Assembly (NCBI RefSeq): GCF_038789205.1
Contig: NZ_CP128355.1
Span: forward strand, 1,488,001-1,552,000
Source of the DNA: Staphylococcus hsinchuensis
GTDB taxonomy: Bacteria; Bacillota; Bacilli; Staphylococcales; Staphylococcaceae
DNA: 64,000 nucleotides
Direction: 5' to 3'
Shown here one piece after another: positions 3,354 to 52,318 of this stretch. Positions within the stretch are counted from its first letter, which is position 1. Every line of letters starts with the position of its first letter. The notes beneath the pieces are model-generated. The model did not search any database, had not been told where the DNA came from, and saw only the letters and a list, made by a program, of their open reading frames with translations. The position numbers and the translations under genes are program-made.

Positions 3354-4721
3354 ATGGCTTTTGAAGGATTATCCGATCGTTTACAAGGAACGATGGAAAA
3401 AATTCGAGGCAAAGGTAAAGTAACTGAAGCTGATATTAAAACAATGATGCGTGAAGTAAGATTAGCGTTATTAGAAGCCGATGTTAACTTTAAAGTCGTT
3501 AAAGAATTTGTAAAGACTGTATCAGATAGAGCCTTGGGTTCAGATGTAATGAAATCTCTTACACCTGGTCAACAAGTCATCAAGATCGTACAAGACGAAC
3601 TAACACAACTGATGGGTGGGGAGAACTCTACCATAAAGATGGCTAACAAGCCGCCAACTGTTGTAATGATGGTTGGTTTACAAGGTGCAGGTAAAACGAC
3701 AACTGCTGGTAAACTAGCACTATTAATGCGTAAAAAATATAATAAAAAGCCATTACTCGTTGCAGCAGATATTTATCGACCAGCTGCAATTGACCAATTG
3801 GAAACTGTCGGTAAACAAATCGACATTCCAGTATATACAGAAGGTGACCAAGTTAAACCACAACAAATCGTGGACAATGCGATTAAACATGCAAAAGAAG
3901 AACATTTAGATTTCGTAATTATTGATACTGCTGGGCGTTTACATGTAGATGAAGCATTGATGCAAGAATTAAGTGACGTTAAAGAAATTACGAAACCTGA
4001 TGAAATTATGTTAGTCGTTGATGCCATGACAGGTCAAGATGCTGTTAATGTAGCACAATCATTCGATGATCAACTCACAATTTCTGGTGTAACATTAACA
4101 AAACTTGATGGTGATACACGTGGTGGTGCAGCACTTTCAATCCGTTCTGTAACGCAGAAACCTATCAAATTTGTCGGTGTGAGTGAAAAATTAGATGGTT
4201 TAGAACTATTCCATCCAGAACGAATGGCATCACGTATACTCGGAATGGGAGACGTTCTTAGTCTCATTGAAAAGGCACAACAAGATGTAGATCAAGAAAA
4301 AGCGAAAAATCTTGAGAAAAAAATGAGAACTTCATCATTTACCCTAGATGATTTCCTTGAACAATTAGACCAAGTGAAGAACTTAGGACCATTAGATGAC
4401 ATTATGAAAATGATTCCTGGTATGAATAAGATGAAAGGTCTAGACAATCTTAAAATGGACGACAAACAGATAGACCATATTAAAGCAATTATTCAATCAA
4501 TGACTGCGACTGAGCGTAGCAATCCAGAAACACTTAATGTCTCTCGTAAGAAACGTATTGCCAAAGGTTCTGGCCGTTCATTACAAGAAGTGAATCGTCT
4601 TATGAAACAATTCAATGAAATGAAGAAAATGATGAAACAATTCACTGGTGGCGGCAAAGGTAAAAAAGGTAAACGTAAACAAATGGAAAACATGCTTAAT
4701 GGTATGAATTTACCATTCTAA
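3354..4721 (+). CDS. ffh: Signal recognition particle protein Ffh (SRP54)
   Basis: Ffh is the GTPase that binds 4.5S RNA and signal peptides emerging from the ribosome. The 455-residue protein has an N domain, a G domain (GLQGAGKTTT near residue 108, DTAGRLH near 192, TKLDGD near 249) and a methionine-rich M domain after about residue 300 (IPGMNKMKG and repeated KKMMKQF-type segments). The C-terminus is Lys/Gly-rich. GGAGGG lies 8 bases before the ATG. The gene ends this SRP unit and is followed by a bidirectional terminator shared with the convergent minus-strand operon. Confidence 0.98.
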   Translation: MAFEGLSDRLQGTMEKIRGKGKVTEADIKTMMREVRLALLEADVNFKVVKEFVKTVSDRALGSDVMKSLTPGQQVIKIVQDELTQLMGGENSTIKMANKPPTVVMMVGLQGAGKTTTAGKLALLMRKKYNKKPLLVAADIYRPAAIDQLETVGKQIDIPVYTEGDQVKPQQIVDNAIKHAKEEHLDFVIIDTAGRLHVDEALMQELSDVKEITKPDEIMLVVDAMTGQDAVNVAQSFDDQLTISGVTLTKLDGDTRGGAALSIRSVTQKPIKFVGVSEKLDGLELFHPERMASRILGMGDVLSLIEKAQQDVDQEKAKNLEKKMRTSSFTLDDFLEQLDQVKNLGPLDDIMKMIPGMNKMKGLDNLKMDDKQIDHIKAIIQSMTATERSNPETLNVSRKKRIAKGSGRSLQEVNRLMKQFNEMKKMMKQFTGGGKGKKGKRKQMENMLNGMNLPF

Positions 4722-4835: not shown

Positions 4836-6140
4836 TTAAATGCCTAAATTTTCTCTAAACGTAGAACCTTCATAAGCTGTTCTAAATAAGCCCCTTCTTT
4901 GCAATTCAGGTATGATATAGTCTACGAAATCTTCTAAACTATTAGGGAGAACTGGTGGCATTAAATTGAAGCCATCAGCCACACCAAGTTCAATCCATTC
5001 TTGCATCGTATCTACAATTTCTTTAGGAGTACCGATAAGTGTTAAATGACCGCCACCTGCACTAAGGTAACCGAGTAATTCACGTAATGTTGGTTCGGTA
5101 TCACGAATAATTTCTAAAACTGTCTCATAACGCCCAACTGGACCCGTGAATTCTTCTACAGGCGGTAAGGGTGGTACAGGTTCATCCAAGTTCCAGTCGC
5201 TACAATCTTGTTGTATAAAGAAACTGAGTTGATTTAAAGCTGCCTCAATTGGTAGCGATTGATCTAATCGTTCCTTTTTAGCATAGGCCTCTTCCGTCGT
5301 TTCGCCTACATATGTGACTAAACCGGGGAAGATTTTAATATGTCTTTGTTCTACATCGCTATTTTCTATTTGGGTATCTAGTTTTTTACGAAAGGCTTTT
5401 GCTTGCTTTAAGTTCCATGATACAGAATAAACTGCGTCTGCATATTTAGTGGCTAAAGCTACACCTTGCTTTGATGCACCTGCTTGCATCGCAACTGGTT
5501 TTTGTTGAGGGCTTTTTGGAACAGTCAGAGGACCATTAACGTTAAAATACTTACCTTGATGATTAAACGCATTAATCTCGTCTGAGTTGATGATACGTTG
5601 ATTTTGTCTATCATGTATAAAGTCTTTTTCATCCCATGAAACGAGTAACTTATTCATTAATTCTGCAAATTCATCTGCTTTTTCATAACGTGAAGCACGT
5701 TCAGGAAGTTCAGGTAAATTATGATTCCATGCTTCTAAGTCTGTCATGGAAGTCACAAGATTCCATCCGATACGCCCACCAGTAATATGATCTAAACTCA
5801 ATATTTGGCGTGCTGCGGTAAATGGATTTGAGAAAGTGCTCGAAATGGTTGCAACTAGTCCCACATGATTTGTTACTTGAGATAAGACAGATAAACTGAC
5901 AATAGGATCAAACCAAAACGCAGGCATATCGCTATCTGAATTTGCAGGGAAAGCTTGATTATCTGCAAAAAATACCGCATCAAATAGACCGCGTTCTGCG
6001 ATTTGTGCTAATTCTTGATAGTAAGTCATATCTCCTACACGTTCGATACTAGAATCGGGCATTAACCATGCTGCTTGATGATGTCCACATGCAATGATTA
6101 ATATCCCTATATTGATTTCCTTTGTTTCTTCATTATTCAT
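4836..6140 (-). CDS. LLM-class flavin-dependent monooxygenase, NtaA/SnaA/DszA family
   Basis: This 434-residue protein is a bacterial-luciferase-like FMN-dependent monooxygenase of the nitrilotriacetate / pristinamycin / dibenzothiophene-sulfone group. Relatives use reduced FMN and oxygen to oxidise N- or S-containing compounds. Family features seen are an N-terminal strand of type INIGILI, the FFADNQ segment, SLDHITGGRIGWNLVTS near residue 135, MQAGASKQG near 222 and the typical C-terminal YEGSTFRENLGI. The start is set at 6140 because GAGGTG lies 7 bases before this ATG; the in-frame ATG at 6155 would overlap that site. It lies 27 bp behind the SDR gene in a TPP-riboswitch-led operon, so a thiamine-related substrate is plausible but is inference. 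The flavin reductase is not encoded nearby. Confidence 0.9.
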   Translation of the reverse strand: MNNEETKEINIGILIIACGHHQAAWLMPDSSIERVGDMTYYQELAQIAERGLFDAVFFADNQAFPANSDSDMPAFWFDPIVSLSVLSQVTNHVGLVATISSTFSNPFTAARQILSLDHITGGRIGWNLVTSMTDLEAWNHNLPELPERASRYEKADEFAELMNKLLVSWDEKDFIHDRQNQRIINSDEINAFNHQGKYFNVNGPLTVPKSPQQKPVAMQAGASKQGVALATKYADAVYSVSWNLKQAKAFRKKLDTQIENSDVEQRHIKIFPGLVTYVGETTEEAYAKKERLDQSLPIEAALNQLSFFIQQDCSDWNLDEPVPPLPPVEEFTGPVGRYETVLEIIRDTEPTLRELLGYLSAGGGHLTLIGTPKEIVDTMQEWIELGVADGFNLMPPVLPNSLEDFVDYIIPELQRRGLFRTAYEGSTFRENLGI

Positions 6141-6167
6141 AAACTCACACCTCATACATAAGAAAAA

Positions 6168-6920
6168 TTAATTCATCGTTAAACCGCCATCAATTGTAAA
6201 GTTTTGACCTGTTATACCTGTAGCTTGATCAGAAATTAAATAAGCTACCATATTTGCTACATCTTGTGGTGTTGTAACCTTTCTTAAAGGCGTAGTTTGG
6301 CCAATCATATCGAATACCTCTGGCGTCGTCGCTGCACTTGCGTCTGTTGTCTTTAGTAACCCACCAGAAACTACATTAGCTCGTATGCCTTGTTGACCTA
6401 ATTCAGCGGCTACATTACGAGTTAAACCAATGAGACCTGCTTTAGCTGTTGTATATTCATGATAGGGAACAACAGGATTTTGATATAAGTTAGTACCGAT
6501 AGAAACAATTGCACCATCTTGTCTATCTATAAATTGAGGTAATACACTCTGTATCACATTAAAAGCTGATTTCAACGTACCATCAAGTTGTTGTTGGTAA
6601 TCTTCCCAAGATAAATCTTTAAATGCCTTTTGTTGTGTCGGGTCAAATTTGAAACCAACGAGTGCATTATTCACGATAGCATCAATTTGACCGAAATGTT
6701 GTGACGCTTTCTGAACTAATGCTTCTACTTCATCTCTTTTTGTTACATCGGCTTGAATAGCAATCGCTTGATCTGTACCGATTTCTTCCACGAGCTGTTG
6801 AGCCTTTGATTCACTTTGAAAATAATTAATTACAACGTTGTGTCCTTGCTCAGCCAATGTTTTAACAGTAGTTGCACCTAATCCACGGCTACTACCTGTA
6901 ACTAATACTGTTTTACGCAT
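6168..6920 (-). CDS. Short-chain dehydrogenase/reductase (SDR), FabG-like
   Basis: This 250-residue classical SDR is probably an NADP(H)-dependent carbonyl reductase or alcohol dehydrogenase. It shows TGSSRGLG near residue 8, NNA near 87, a catalytic YTTAK near 155-159 and the C-terminal ITGQNFTIDGG. FabG-like proteins are often misnamed; the riboswitch context argues against a fatty-acid role. The start at 6920 is preferred because AGGAGA then lies at proper spacing, whereas the ATG at 6926 abuts the Shine-Dalgarno site. It is the first gene of the two-gene operon, directly behind the riboswitch terminator. The substrate is unknown. It may act on the product or precursor of the downstream monooxygenase. 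Confidence 0.88.
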   Translation of the reverse strand: MRKTVLVTGSSRGLGATTVKTLAEQGHNVVINYFQSESKAQQLVEEIGTDQAIAIQADVTKRDEVEALVQKASQHFGQIDAIVNNALVGFKFDPTQQKAFKDLSWEDYQQQLDGTLKSAFNVIQSVLPQFIDRQDGAIVSIGTNLYQNPVVPYHEYTTAKAGLIGLTRNVAAELGQQGIRANVVSGGLLKTTDASAATTPEVFDMIGQTTPLRKVTTPQDVANMVAYLISDQATGITGQNFTIDGGLTMN

Positions 6921-6950
6921 ATACATCTCTCCTAAAATATTTAATCAATA

Positions 6951-6984
6951 AAAAACACAACTTTCATAAAAAGAAAGTTGTGTA
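6951..6984 (-). terminator. Riboswitch-controlled intrinsic terminator upstream of the SDR gene
   Basis: Read on the minus strand, an 11-bp perfect stem ACACAACTTTC / GAAAGTTGTGT with a 7-base loop is followed by TTTTTA. It lies between the TPP aptamer and the SDR start. That is the normal place for a transcription-attenuation platform. Confidence 0.88.
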
Positions 6985-7042
6985 TGAGAAATTCATGTTT
7001 ATATCAATAGAATTTAATTCTAAATCAACGATAACATCATCC

Positions 7043-7125
7043 ACACTTTCCTACGCTAGTTCAAACTAGATCAGGTTCGAAGGGTTTGAGCTAAAGCTTA
7101 TCTCAGTTAAAAACACCCCTAGTGT
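7043..7125 (-). promoter_or_regulatory. TPP riboswitch (THI element)
   Basis: The minus strand carries the hallmark TPP aptamer elements: ACACTAGGGGTG at the 5' side, the CTGAGA box, AACCCTTCGAACCTGATCTAG and the closing GCGTAGGAAAGTGT. P1 is ACACT/AGTGT. The aptamer is complete and about 83 nt long. With the terminator at 6951-6984 it should switch the SDR-LLM operon off when thiamine pyrophosphate is abundant. Identification is by consensus and is confident; the OFF direction follows from the pairing of the P1 3' strand with the terminator. Confidence 0.94.
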
Positions 7126-7146
7126 CTATTTATTTAATTTAACTTC

Positions 7147-7175
7147 AATGTAAAGTTAATCGACTGTTGTGTCAA
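7147..7175 (-). promoter_or_regulatory. Sigma-A promoter for the riboswitch operon
   Basis: On the minus strand, TTGACA (7170-7175) and TACATT (7147-7152) are separated by 17 bases. This is a near-consensus promoter placed about 20 bases before the aptamer. Confidence 0.8.
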
Positions 7176-9888: not shown

Positions 9889-9990
9889 CAGTGTGCTAAT
9901 ATATTTTAAGTGTGCGAAGCACGAAAAATCACTATGGTCCGCTGCTATATTTTGTCGAGGCAAGAACATAGGCTGAAGGAGAGAATAAAT
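9885..9990 (+). promoter_or_regulatory. Putative L19 leader (autoregulatory element before rplS)
   Basis: The trmD-rplS spacer folds: ATAGCAG (9885-9891, overlapping the trmD stop) pairs with CTGCTAT (9942-9948) and encloses a small hairpin GTGC-GAA-GCAC at about 9912-9922. The position matches the L19 leader known in low-GC Gram-positives. The pairing is seen; assignment to that leader family is inference. Confidence 0.55.
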
Positions 9991-49930: not shown

Positions 49931-50218
49931 TATGAGCCTTTTGAAAATATTAAATTGAAACTACGATAAAAAGTTGTTAGTTATAATATACATAATGAAC
50001 TGAAAAATGTATTGAAGAGTTAGTTGTATCAATATTCAAAATACGTTTAAATTTGAATTCGAAATGTAGAGAAAACCTACATTTATTCACGAGTTATACA
50101 GTTATGCACTCTACATTTTAATATAATCAAATTGTGACCAAAAATAATAAGTTCCATTATAAAAATAAAGTAATAAATGATATGATAGATGTATTAGATA
50201 TATGAGAGGAGATTCGCA

Positions 50219-52318
50219 ATGTCTCAAGAGAAAAAAGTATTCAAAACCGAATGGGCGAATAGATCATTAACAATCGAAACTGGTCAATTAGCTAAACAAG
50301 CAAATGGTGCAGTTCTCGTTCGATATGGTGATACAGTCGTATTATCTACGGCAGTTGCTTCTAAGGAACCACGTGAAGGTGATTTCTTCCCATTAATGGT
50401 AAACTACGAAGAAAAAATGTACGCTGCAGGTAAAATACCAGGTGGTTTTAAAAAGCGTGAGGGACGCCCAAGTGATGAAGCGACCTTAACTGCTCGTCTC
50501 ATTGACAGACCGATAAGACCGTTATTCCCAAATGGCTATCGTTATGATGTTCAAATAATGAATACTGTATTAAGTGCAGATCCAGATTGTTCACCAGAAA
50601 TGGCAGCAATGATTGGCTCATCTATGGCATTAAGTGTTTCAGACATTCCATTCCAAGGCCCAATCGCTGGTGTAAATGTTGGATATATTGATGGTGAATA
50701 TATCATTAATCCAACTGTTGAACAAAAAGAAGTTTCATTACTAGATTTAGAAGTTGCGGGTCATAAAGATGCTGTCAACATGGTAGAGGCTGGCGCAAGT
50801 GAAATTACAGAAGAAGAAATGTTAGATGCAATCTTCTTTGGACATAGTGAAATTCAACGCTTAGTGGCATTCCAAGAAGAAATCATTGATAATCTTCAAC
50901 CAGAGAAGAAAGAATTCATTCCAGAAGAACAAGATGAAACGTTGTTTGAAAAAGTACAATCACTTACTGAATCTTATGGATTAAAAGAAGCGGTGCTTAC
51001 ATTTGATAAACAACAACGCGATGACAATATCGATAACCTTAAAGATAAAGTCGTTGCCGAATTCGTAGATGAAGAAGACGAAGAGAATGAATCTTTAATC
51101 GAAGAAGTGCATAGCATATTAAATGACCTTGTTAAAGAAGAAGTAAGAAGATTAATTGCTGAAGAAAAAATCAGACCAGATGGACGTAAAACAGATGAAA
51201 TTAGACCACTAGATACTGAAGTAGGCTTATTACCAAGAGCGCACGGTTCAGGATTGTTTACAAGAGGACAAACTCAAGCGTTATCTGTTGTAACTTTAGG
51301 TTCAATGAGTGAATATCAAATCTTAGATGGACTTGGTGAAGAAGAACAAAAACGTTTCATGCACCATTACAACTTCCCAAATTACTCAGTTGGTGAAACA
51401 GGTCCTGTTCGTTCACCAGGTCGTAGAGAAATTGGACACGGTGCATTAGGTGAACGTGCACTACGACATATTATACCTGATGTTACTGAATTCCCTTATA
51501 CTGTGAGAGTTGTAAGTGAAGTATTAGAATCAAACGGTTCCTCATCACAAGCATCAATTTGTGGATCTACTTTAGCATTAATGGACGCTGGTGTTCCTAT
51601 TAAAGCACCTGTAGCTGGTATTGCGATGGGTCTCGTGACACGTGATGATAGTTATACAATATTAACAGATATTCAAGGTATGGAAGATGCTTTAGGAGAT
51701 ATGGACTTTAAAGTTGCAGGTACTTCTAAAGGTATCACAGCGATTCAAATGGATATTAAAATTGATGGCTTAACGAAAGAGATTATTCAAGAAGCCTTAG
51801 ATCAAGCACGTGAAGGCCGTATGACGATTTTAAATCATATGATGCAAACGATAGATACACCACGTACTGAACTAAGTATGTATGCACCTAAAGTAGAAAA
51901 GATGACAATTAAACCGGATAAAATTCGTGACGTTATTGGACCTGGTGGTAAGAAAATTAATGAAATCATCGATGAAACTGGCGTTAAATTAGACATTGAA
52001 CAAGATGGTACGATTATTATCGGTGCTGTAGATAAAGAAGCAATAGAAGCTGCGCGTAAGATTATCGAAGATATCACGCGTGAAGCGGAAGTAGGTCAAG
52101 TGTACGATGGGAAAGTCAAACGTATCGAAAAATATGGTGCTTTTGTCGAATTATTCCCAGGTAAAGATGCTTTAGTACACATTTCACAAATTGCTAAAGA
52201 GCGCATTGATAAAGTAGAAGATGTATTAAAAGTAGGCGACACATTTAAAGTGAAAGTGACTGAAATCGATAAACAAGGTCGCGTGAACGCATCTCATAAA
52301 GTGCTTTTAAATGATTAA
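50219..52318 (+). CDS. pnp: Polyribonucleotide nucleotidyltransferase (PNPase)
   Basis: PNPase (699 residues) is a phosphorolytic 3'-5' exoribonuclease. It has two RNase PH domains ([20 protein letters not shown] near residue 31; [18 protein letters not shown] near 356), an alpha-helical linker, a KH domain ([20 protein letters not shown] near 565) and a C-terminal S1 domain ([20 protein letters not shown] near 629). GAGAGGAG precedes the ATG. It is followed by a terminator and then rnjB, another mRNA-decay enzyme. Confidence 0.98.

Follow-up and report, generated by a model that had tools for sequence, protein, structure and literature searches.

TenA and YlmB, the enzymes of one route of thiamine salvage, are hydrolytic aminases or amidases. 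Monooxygenases of the NtaA/DmoA family, in contrast, use FMNH2 and O2 to cleave C-N or C-S bonds with release of an aldehyde or a keto acid, and one of them, CmoJ/YtnJ, is a sulphur-salvage enzyme in Bacillus subtilis. The chemistry of LuxE-LuxC leads from an acid to an aldehyde. In a 64,000-nucleotide stretch of the genome of Staphylococcus hsinchuensis (GCF_038789205.1, contig NZ_CP128355.1, positions 1,488,001 to 1,552,000; hereafter the window), a thiamine pyrophosphate (TPP) riboswitch precedes two genes that encode a short-chain dehydrogenase/reductase (SDR) and a luciferase-like monooxygenase (LLM). We propose, with a probability of roughly 0.45, that this operon would be a TPP-repressed two-enzyme module for thiamine salvage, in which the thiazole is the favoured building block. 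Because the SDR-LLM pair travels with thiamine genes in many related bacteria, it probably carries out an undescribed step that recovers a thiamine building block.

The leader of the operon contained a TPP aptamer (RF00059; 7031..7130, minus strand) that matched the full model with 75.5 bits (gathering score 54.3, E 4.5e-13), and an intrinsic terminator (6955..6983, minus strand) with an 11-bp stem, a 7-nt loop, and a T run. The complete aptamer and terminator that had been proposed in the initial annotation of this DNA were therefore recovered. The near-consensus promoter proposed there was confirmed as a motif, TTGACA-17-TACATT (7147..7175, minus strand; 10 of 12 positions matching in a pattern scan), but its frequency in the whole stretch was not above that in shuffles (12 versus a mean of 10.4), and the promoter alone is weak evidence. 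Folding predicted an anti-terminator (6970..7053, minus strand) that consists of the 3' strand of aptamer helix P1, GGAAAGUGUG (about 7052-7042), paired with the 5' arm of the terminator. When the first 160 nt of the leader were folded, this pairing appeared in the optimal structure, and the terminator formed in the longer leader; the optimal single-sequence structure of the whole leader did not contain the aptamer. An expression platform coupled to P1 was thus found by folding and is partly conserved in relatives. Among 60 distinct orthologous leaders, the aptamer helices covaried, with 95.1% of cells paired and 10 pairs changed on both sides, and none of 500 shuffles reached the value of the alignment for paired cells or for two-sided changes. 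Further standard pair types showed no excess in this alignment (20 versus 23.1 in shuffles). Of 68 orthologous leaders, 62 had a terminator-like hairpin after the aptamer (that of locus L102, at -4.9 kcal/mol, is doubtful), and the pairing between the aptamer tail and the 5' arm of the terminator beat at least 95 of 100 shuffles in 47 of these 62. Judged from the sequence, the leader would be a transcriptional OFF switch, in which the closing of P1 by TPP leaves the terminator free to form. Genes behind such a switch are expressed at low TPP, which fits supply or salvage, the direction that had been supposed initially; thiamine catabolism was rejected because an OFF switch would express it at low TPP.

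The SDR gene (6168..6926, minus strand) encodes 252 amino acids and is of the NF006393/PRK08642 type (395.3 bits, cut-off 292), and the LLM gene (4836..6140, minus strand) encodes a 434-amino-acid monooxygenase dependent on flavin mononucleotide (FMN), of the TIGR03860 NtaA/DmoA family (480.4 bits, cut-off 279.7). Both family assignments of the initial annotation were therefore upheld. The two genes are separated by 27 bases, and the LLM would start at 6155 if the upstream ATG is taken. As had been noted, the operon has exactly two genes; no third gene was found on the minus strand between LLM and ffh, which lies on the opposite strand and ends at 4721, and no flavin reductase gene was found among the open reading frames (ORFs) of the operon. 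The name "3-oxoacyl-ACP (acyl carrier protein) reductase" is the product name of NF006393/PRK08642 and only an annotation. The SDR retained the Asn, Tyr, and Lys of the active site, and the position of the catalytic Ser was aligned as Thr. Its identification as FabG was rejected because the FabG of the genome itself, located beside acpP/rnc/smc, fell outside the clade formed by the SDRs of the pair and those of LuxE-LuxC operons (support 100/99). A homologue search with the SDR retrieved only close relatives among the 120 matches listed. The LLM is identical (100%) to that of Staphylococcus sp. Marseille-Q5304. A fold search with its predicted model (predicted local distance difference test 82.7) confirmed the TIM-barrel fold of LLMs, and the best structural match was CmoJ/YtnJ (6ask), with a template modelling (TM) score of 0.83 and 37% identity. 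Further matches included BdsA, nitrilotriacetate (NTA) monooxygenase, LadA, DmoA, RcaE, EmoA, and HcbA1. The likeness to RutA on which the initial annotation had drawn did not hold, because the RutA model gave 52.1 bits, far below its cut-off of 498.3, and the LLM was rejected as a RutA.

The conservation of the operon was examined in 108 Staphylococcaceae genomes (SDR threshold E<=1e-60) and in a sample of 398 genomes of the class (LLM threshold E<=1e-130). The SDR was present in 58 of the 108 family genomes, 53 of which carried a full-length, close LLM (63-100% identity) alongside it. An aptamer lay 5' of the SDR at 57 of the 58 loci according to R1, our own TPP model, which was built from six leaders of the same module so that its scan favours the recovery of relatives; the Rfam TPP model, applied independently to part of the loci, agreed for the loci tested. 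In the class sample, the LLM was detected in 29 genomes (15 within Staphylococcaceae and 14 outside), and the SDR adjoined it at all 28 loci beyond the source locus (L107-L134). The pair stood behind a TPP aptamer in all 14 genomes outside the family: the aptamer was directly upstream in 11, and in the remaining three, which belong to one genus, it headed a tenI-thiO-thiS-thiG-thiF-SDR-LLM operon. The supposed thiamine-related role is thus supported at the orthologous loci, both within the family and beyond it. Locus L141 comprised TPP-SDR-LLM-thiM-thiD-thiE-thiW, with every thi gene above its family cut-off. At L146, a thiM stub fused to a piece of thiW (26.2 versus the Pfam cut-off of 30.3) lay between the aptamer and the SDR, and L145 contained a shorter thiM stub. 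The pair thus lies behind TPP aptamers and shares operons with thi genes, both of which are expected of a thiamine-salvage candidate. In a set of eight LLM loci, the six whose LLM is at least 63% identical (three of which are the same contigs as genomes G058, G018, and G016) had a TPP aptamer, and the two at 34-39% did not.

Genomes G032 and G056 each carry an orphan TPP aptamer (L177:6485-6585, plus strand; L178:6233-6334, minus strand). It has no gene directly downstream and lies at the SDR-LLM place of related species, between the genes that flank the pair in eight other species. Gene order indicates that the pair is lost in both and that the switch was left behind. G056 also has a TPP aptamer before a gene that resembles a ThiY-type binding protein, named by eye (L179:5463-6374, minus strand). 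In G355, a S-adenosylmethionine (SAM) riboswitch (L107:1137-1249, minus strand) is located about 250 bp beyond the LLM, which ends at 1501.

The genome of S. hsinchuensis contained five TPP aptamers, located before tenA-thiD-thiM-thiE, thiC, a ykoEDC-type transporter, tenI-thiO-thiS-thiG-thiF (thiS assigned by similarity), and SDR-LLM. The known thiamine genes are therefore complete there apart from dxs, which was not found, and the pair comes on top of them. The initial annotation had raised both co-occurrence with thi genes and their replacement. Replacement was rejected because thiC, thiG, thiM, thiE, thiD, and tenA are all in the same genome, whereas co-occurrence was found: 52 of the 53 intact pairs in Staphylococcaceae were in genomes with thiG (p 1.8e-5, in tests that ignore common descent). 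Furthermore, of the five genomes in which the SDR lacks an intact LLM, two have no thiG, compared with one of the 53 in which the LLM is intact (p 0.018). The co-occurrence tables were compiled by hand from the matches listed. Near copies are counted in them (G000 and G058 are one species, and G099 and G100 hardly differ), and so are broken genes (thiG of G079, thiC of G038 and G047, and a partial thiC in G005). The source genome also carries, adjoining thiF, a C-terminal remnant of another LLM monooxygenase (TIGR03858, 49 bits; L009:6088-6450, minus strand).

A second type of operon contained an SDR related to that of the pair. LuxC was detected in four of the 108 Staphylococcaceae genomes, in each case as TPP-LuxE-LuxC-SDR (L176:3538-6837, L217:6120-9424, L218:5571-8870, and L191), and three of the four also kept the SDR-LLM pair; G032, in which the pair is lost, carries TPP-LuxE-LuxC-SDR. 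These staphylococcal operons are divergent from a second TPP aptamer with a ykoE-like gene. In the class sample, LuxC was found in 22 genomes at E<=1e-15 and in 11 at E<=1e-60; among the latter, an NF006393-type SDR was in the operon in nine and a TPP aptamer in seven. TPP-controlled LuxE-LuxC-SDR operons of other Bacilli (L209, L210, L211, L212, L214, and L215) included several with an ATP-binding cassette (ABC) importer. The arrangement was tenI-thiO-thiS-thiG-thiF-LuxE-LuxC-ABC importer-SDR at L211 and LuxE-LuxC-ABC importer-SDR-thiM at L213, where no TPP aptamer was found. The neighbours of LuxE-LuxC were an NMT1/THI5-type binding protein with an ABC importer, a NCS2 nucleobase-type permease (L215), and a ykoE-like subunit. 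In a phylogenetic tree of 31 SDR sequences (G036 left out because no reading frame was identified for it, and several outgroup branches long), 16 SDRs of the pair and 10 of LuxE-LuxC operons formed sister clades, with 100/99 support against FabG and four other SDRs. Both groups have in common an insert after the NNA motif and a VPYHxYxxAK stretch. The LuxE and LuxC relatives scored far under the cut-offs of true lux proteins (100.1 versus 550 and 123.6 versus 750), which makes a long-chain fatty acid an unlikely substrate. The acid-to-aldehyde chemistry of LuxE-LuxC and the presence of the SDR in these operons point to the reduction of an aldehyde to an alcohol as the natural task of this SDR. 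TPP-controlled LuxE-LuxC-SDR operons are apparently undescribed.

These observations can be joined into a possible mechanism. When TPP is plentiful, the aptamer would close P1, the terminator would form, and the genes would be off; when TPP is scarce, the anti-terminator would form and the SDR and LLM would be made. The LLM may take as its substrate a compound derived from thiamine or bearing the thiazole, for which the cell has no direct use, and would release a heterocyclic aldehyde from it by oxidation. The SDR would then reduce this aldehyde to an alcohol, most likely hydroxyethylthiazole, the substrate of ThiM, and less likely hydroxymethylpyrimidine (HMP), the substrate of ThiD, from which the kinases and ThiE of the same genome would rebuild thiamine phosphate. 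In the LuxE-LuxC-SDR operons, an imported carboxylic acid may be the source of the aldehyde for the same SDR step. The thiazole is favoured because of the operons with thiM, thiW, and thiO-thiS-thiG-thiF and because of the association with thiG.

Several observations weigh against this proposal. The SDR and the LLM are separable, since five of the 58 family genomes with the SDR lacked an intact LLM; one of these (G065, locus L103) retained the SDR with neither aptamer nor LLM and is the sole exception to the 57 of 58, and L013 is a TPP-LLM locus with no SDR alongside. A stop interrupts the LLM in the thi operon of G379, so that two of the three pairs in such operons are intact. An intact pair was present in only one of 19 thiG-less genomes, although hydroxyethylthiazole salvage would be most needed there, and the association with thiG is not corrected for shared ancestry. 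A LuxE-LuxC-SDR-thiM stretch in G266 had no TPP aptamer above threshold. With respect to the leader, no terminator was recognised in six of the 68 orthologues, and in 15 of 62 the anti-terminator pairing was not significant. A published Escherichia coli reporter test (PMC12632268) is also of note, in which two TPP leaders of M. sciuri (tenA and thiE) gave a weak response or none and one TPP leader of S. aureus gave no signal; the leader of the pair is not one of these three. Finally, the NMT1/THI5-type binding protein, the NCS2 permease, and the ykoE-like transporters beside LuxE-LuxC could equally indicate a pyrimidine.

It is because of these importer types that a pyrimidine substrate is still considered, although we regard it as rather unlikely. 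The LLM would then cleave the aminomethyl bridge of thiamine-derived pyrimidines to give 4-amino-2-methylpyrimidine-5-carbaldehyde, which the SDR would reduce to HMP, and LuxE-LuxC-SDR would do likewise from the pyrimidine carboxylate. N-dealkylation is established for relatives of the LLM, and the thiG association would fit if recovery is limited to the pyrimidine, so that the thiazole must be synthesised anew. A riboflavin pathway that begins with the oxidative removal of ribose (PMC12746152) can also be counted for this version. However, the operon partners of the pair (thiM and thiW genes or their remnants, and tenI-thiO-thiS-thiG-thiF) lean toward the thiazole, and no association with thiC was found within thiG genomes (30/52 versus 18/37, p 0.52). 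The same OFF regulation and the salvage operon would also fit a pair that destroys a thiamine antagonist, or damaged thiamine occupying a transporter, kinase, or riboswitch, and returns the usable half; the LLM relatives BdsA and HcbA1 attack foreign heterocycles. This appears improbable, since very wide single-copy retention with thiG is atypical of defence, and no link to resistance or antagonist genes turned up, although no search was aimed at these. The reading to which we give least credence is that thiamine is only the signal, and that the two enzymes belong to housekeeping or to sulphur metabolism and came under a captured TPP riboswitch. The closest structure, CmoJ/YtnJ, and the SAM riboswitch of G355 point in that direction, but the membership of two different thi operons, the thiM/thiW remnants, and the thiG association argue against it.

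The remaining alternative concerns the supply of 1-deoxyxylulose 5-phosphate (DXP), which ThiG requires. The dxs gene was not found in the source genome (best PF13292 match 1.9e-4) and was undetected in 62 of the 108 family genomes (PF13292, E<1e-100); 52 of the 108 have thiG with no detectable dxs, which poses the puzzle of where their DXP comes from. A literature search on DXP in staphylococci yielded nothing useful. Since ThiO, ThiS, and ThiF are present, DXP would be the gap, and the pair might provide ThiG with 1-deoxyxylulose (phosphate) or an equivalent unit of five carbons. It would then yield the five-carbon precursor of the thiazole without Dxs and would enable de novo thiazole synthesis in mevalonate-type staphylococci that have ThiG, ThiO, ThiS, and ThiF and no detectable dxs. 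The raw association is strong: among thiG genomes, the intact pair occurred in 46 of 52 without dxs versus six of 37 with dxs (p 3.6e-12), so that 46 of the 53 pair-bearing genomes have thiG and no detectable dxs, and among dxs-less genomes the pair followed thiG (46/52 versus 1/10, p 2.2e-6). On the other hand, a tree of ThiG from 59 genomes, out of 89 with thiG, indicated that dxs changed twice and the pair ten times, which leaves one or two independent pairs and no significance, and the replacement of DXP synthase was not supported across independent lineages. In addition, dxs was present in all 14 pair-bearing genomes outside the family, some genomes with thiG and no dxs lacked the pair (G032, G056, G104, and G079, the last with a split thiG), and the thiM-thiD-thiE-thiW operon and the LuxE-LuxC parallel fit salvage better. 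A role in DXP supply is therefore considered a slim prospect. A xylulokinase-like FGGY kinase before the tenI operon (L009:472-1959) was also rejected as a route to DXP, because its spot is held by other genes in G056 and G104 (L182 and L180).

Two other RNA features were detected in the window. A match to the Rfam family rliD, a Listeria small RNA, lies antisense over the start of pnp (window 50153-50399, minus strand; 57.9 versus 50 bits; ORF 50219-52318, plus strand), and an ordinary ribosomal protein L19 leader precedes rplS (window 9931-9972, plus strand).

If thiamine salvage is the role of the operon, a TPP-controlled pair that carries the names of a fatty-acid reductase and a luciferase-like monooxygenase would be a missing and widely kept piece of thiamine metabolism, whose dependence on oxygen would set it apart from the hydrolytic salvage known so far. 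The LuxE-LuxC-SDR operons with their own importer would offer further, independent access to this chemistry, and concrete candidate substrates are thiazole acetaldehyde or acetate, pyrimidine carbaldehyde or carboxylate, and substituted thiamines. A survey of the thiamin regulon from 2002 reportedly listed a THI-regulated, oxoacyl-ACP-reductase-like gene, oarX; this gene may be the SDR of the pair, in which case the SDR would have been noticed earlier, and it is not known to have been given an LLM partner or a function there. No publication on the pair or on TPP-controlled LuxE-LuxC was found among the matches listed in a literature search of titles and abstract openings.

Compared with known systems, the proposed module resembles TenA/YlmB (thiXYZ) salvage, which is likewise a TPP-controlled recovery of one half of thiamine and is represented in the source genome by tenA under its own aptamer. 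It would differ in being oxygen- and flavin-dependent, as predicted from the families of its two enzymes. ThiM/ThiW salvage, which shares one operon with the pair at L141, uses ready hydroxyethylthiazole, whereas the pair would make this compound or an equivalent. The LLM agrees with the NtaA/DmoA monooxygenases (CmoJ/YtnJ, NTA and ethylenediaminetetraacetate (EDTA) monooxygenase, BdsA, DmoA, and the riboflavin lyase RcaE) in its family model and in its predicted fold, with a TM score of 0.80-0.83 to RcaE close to that to CmoJ; in contrast to these enzymes, to whose solved members it is 27-37% identical, it is under TPP control and has a fixed SDR partner. Genes related to the LuxE-LuxC fatty-acid reductase are found here beside an SDR of the sister clade, often behind a TPP aptamer, and their products fall far short of the scores of true lux proteins.

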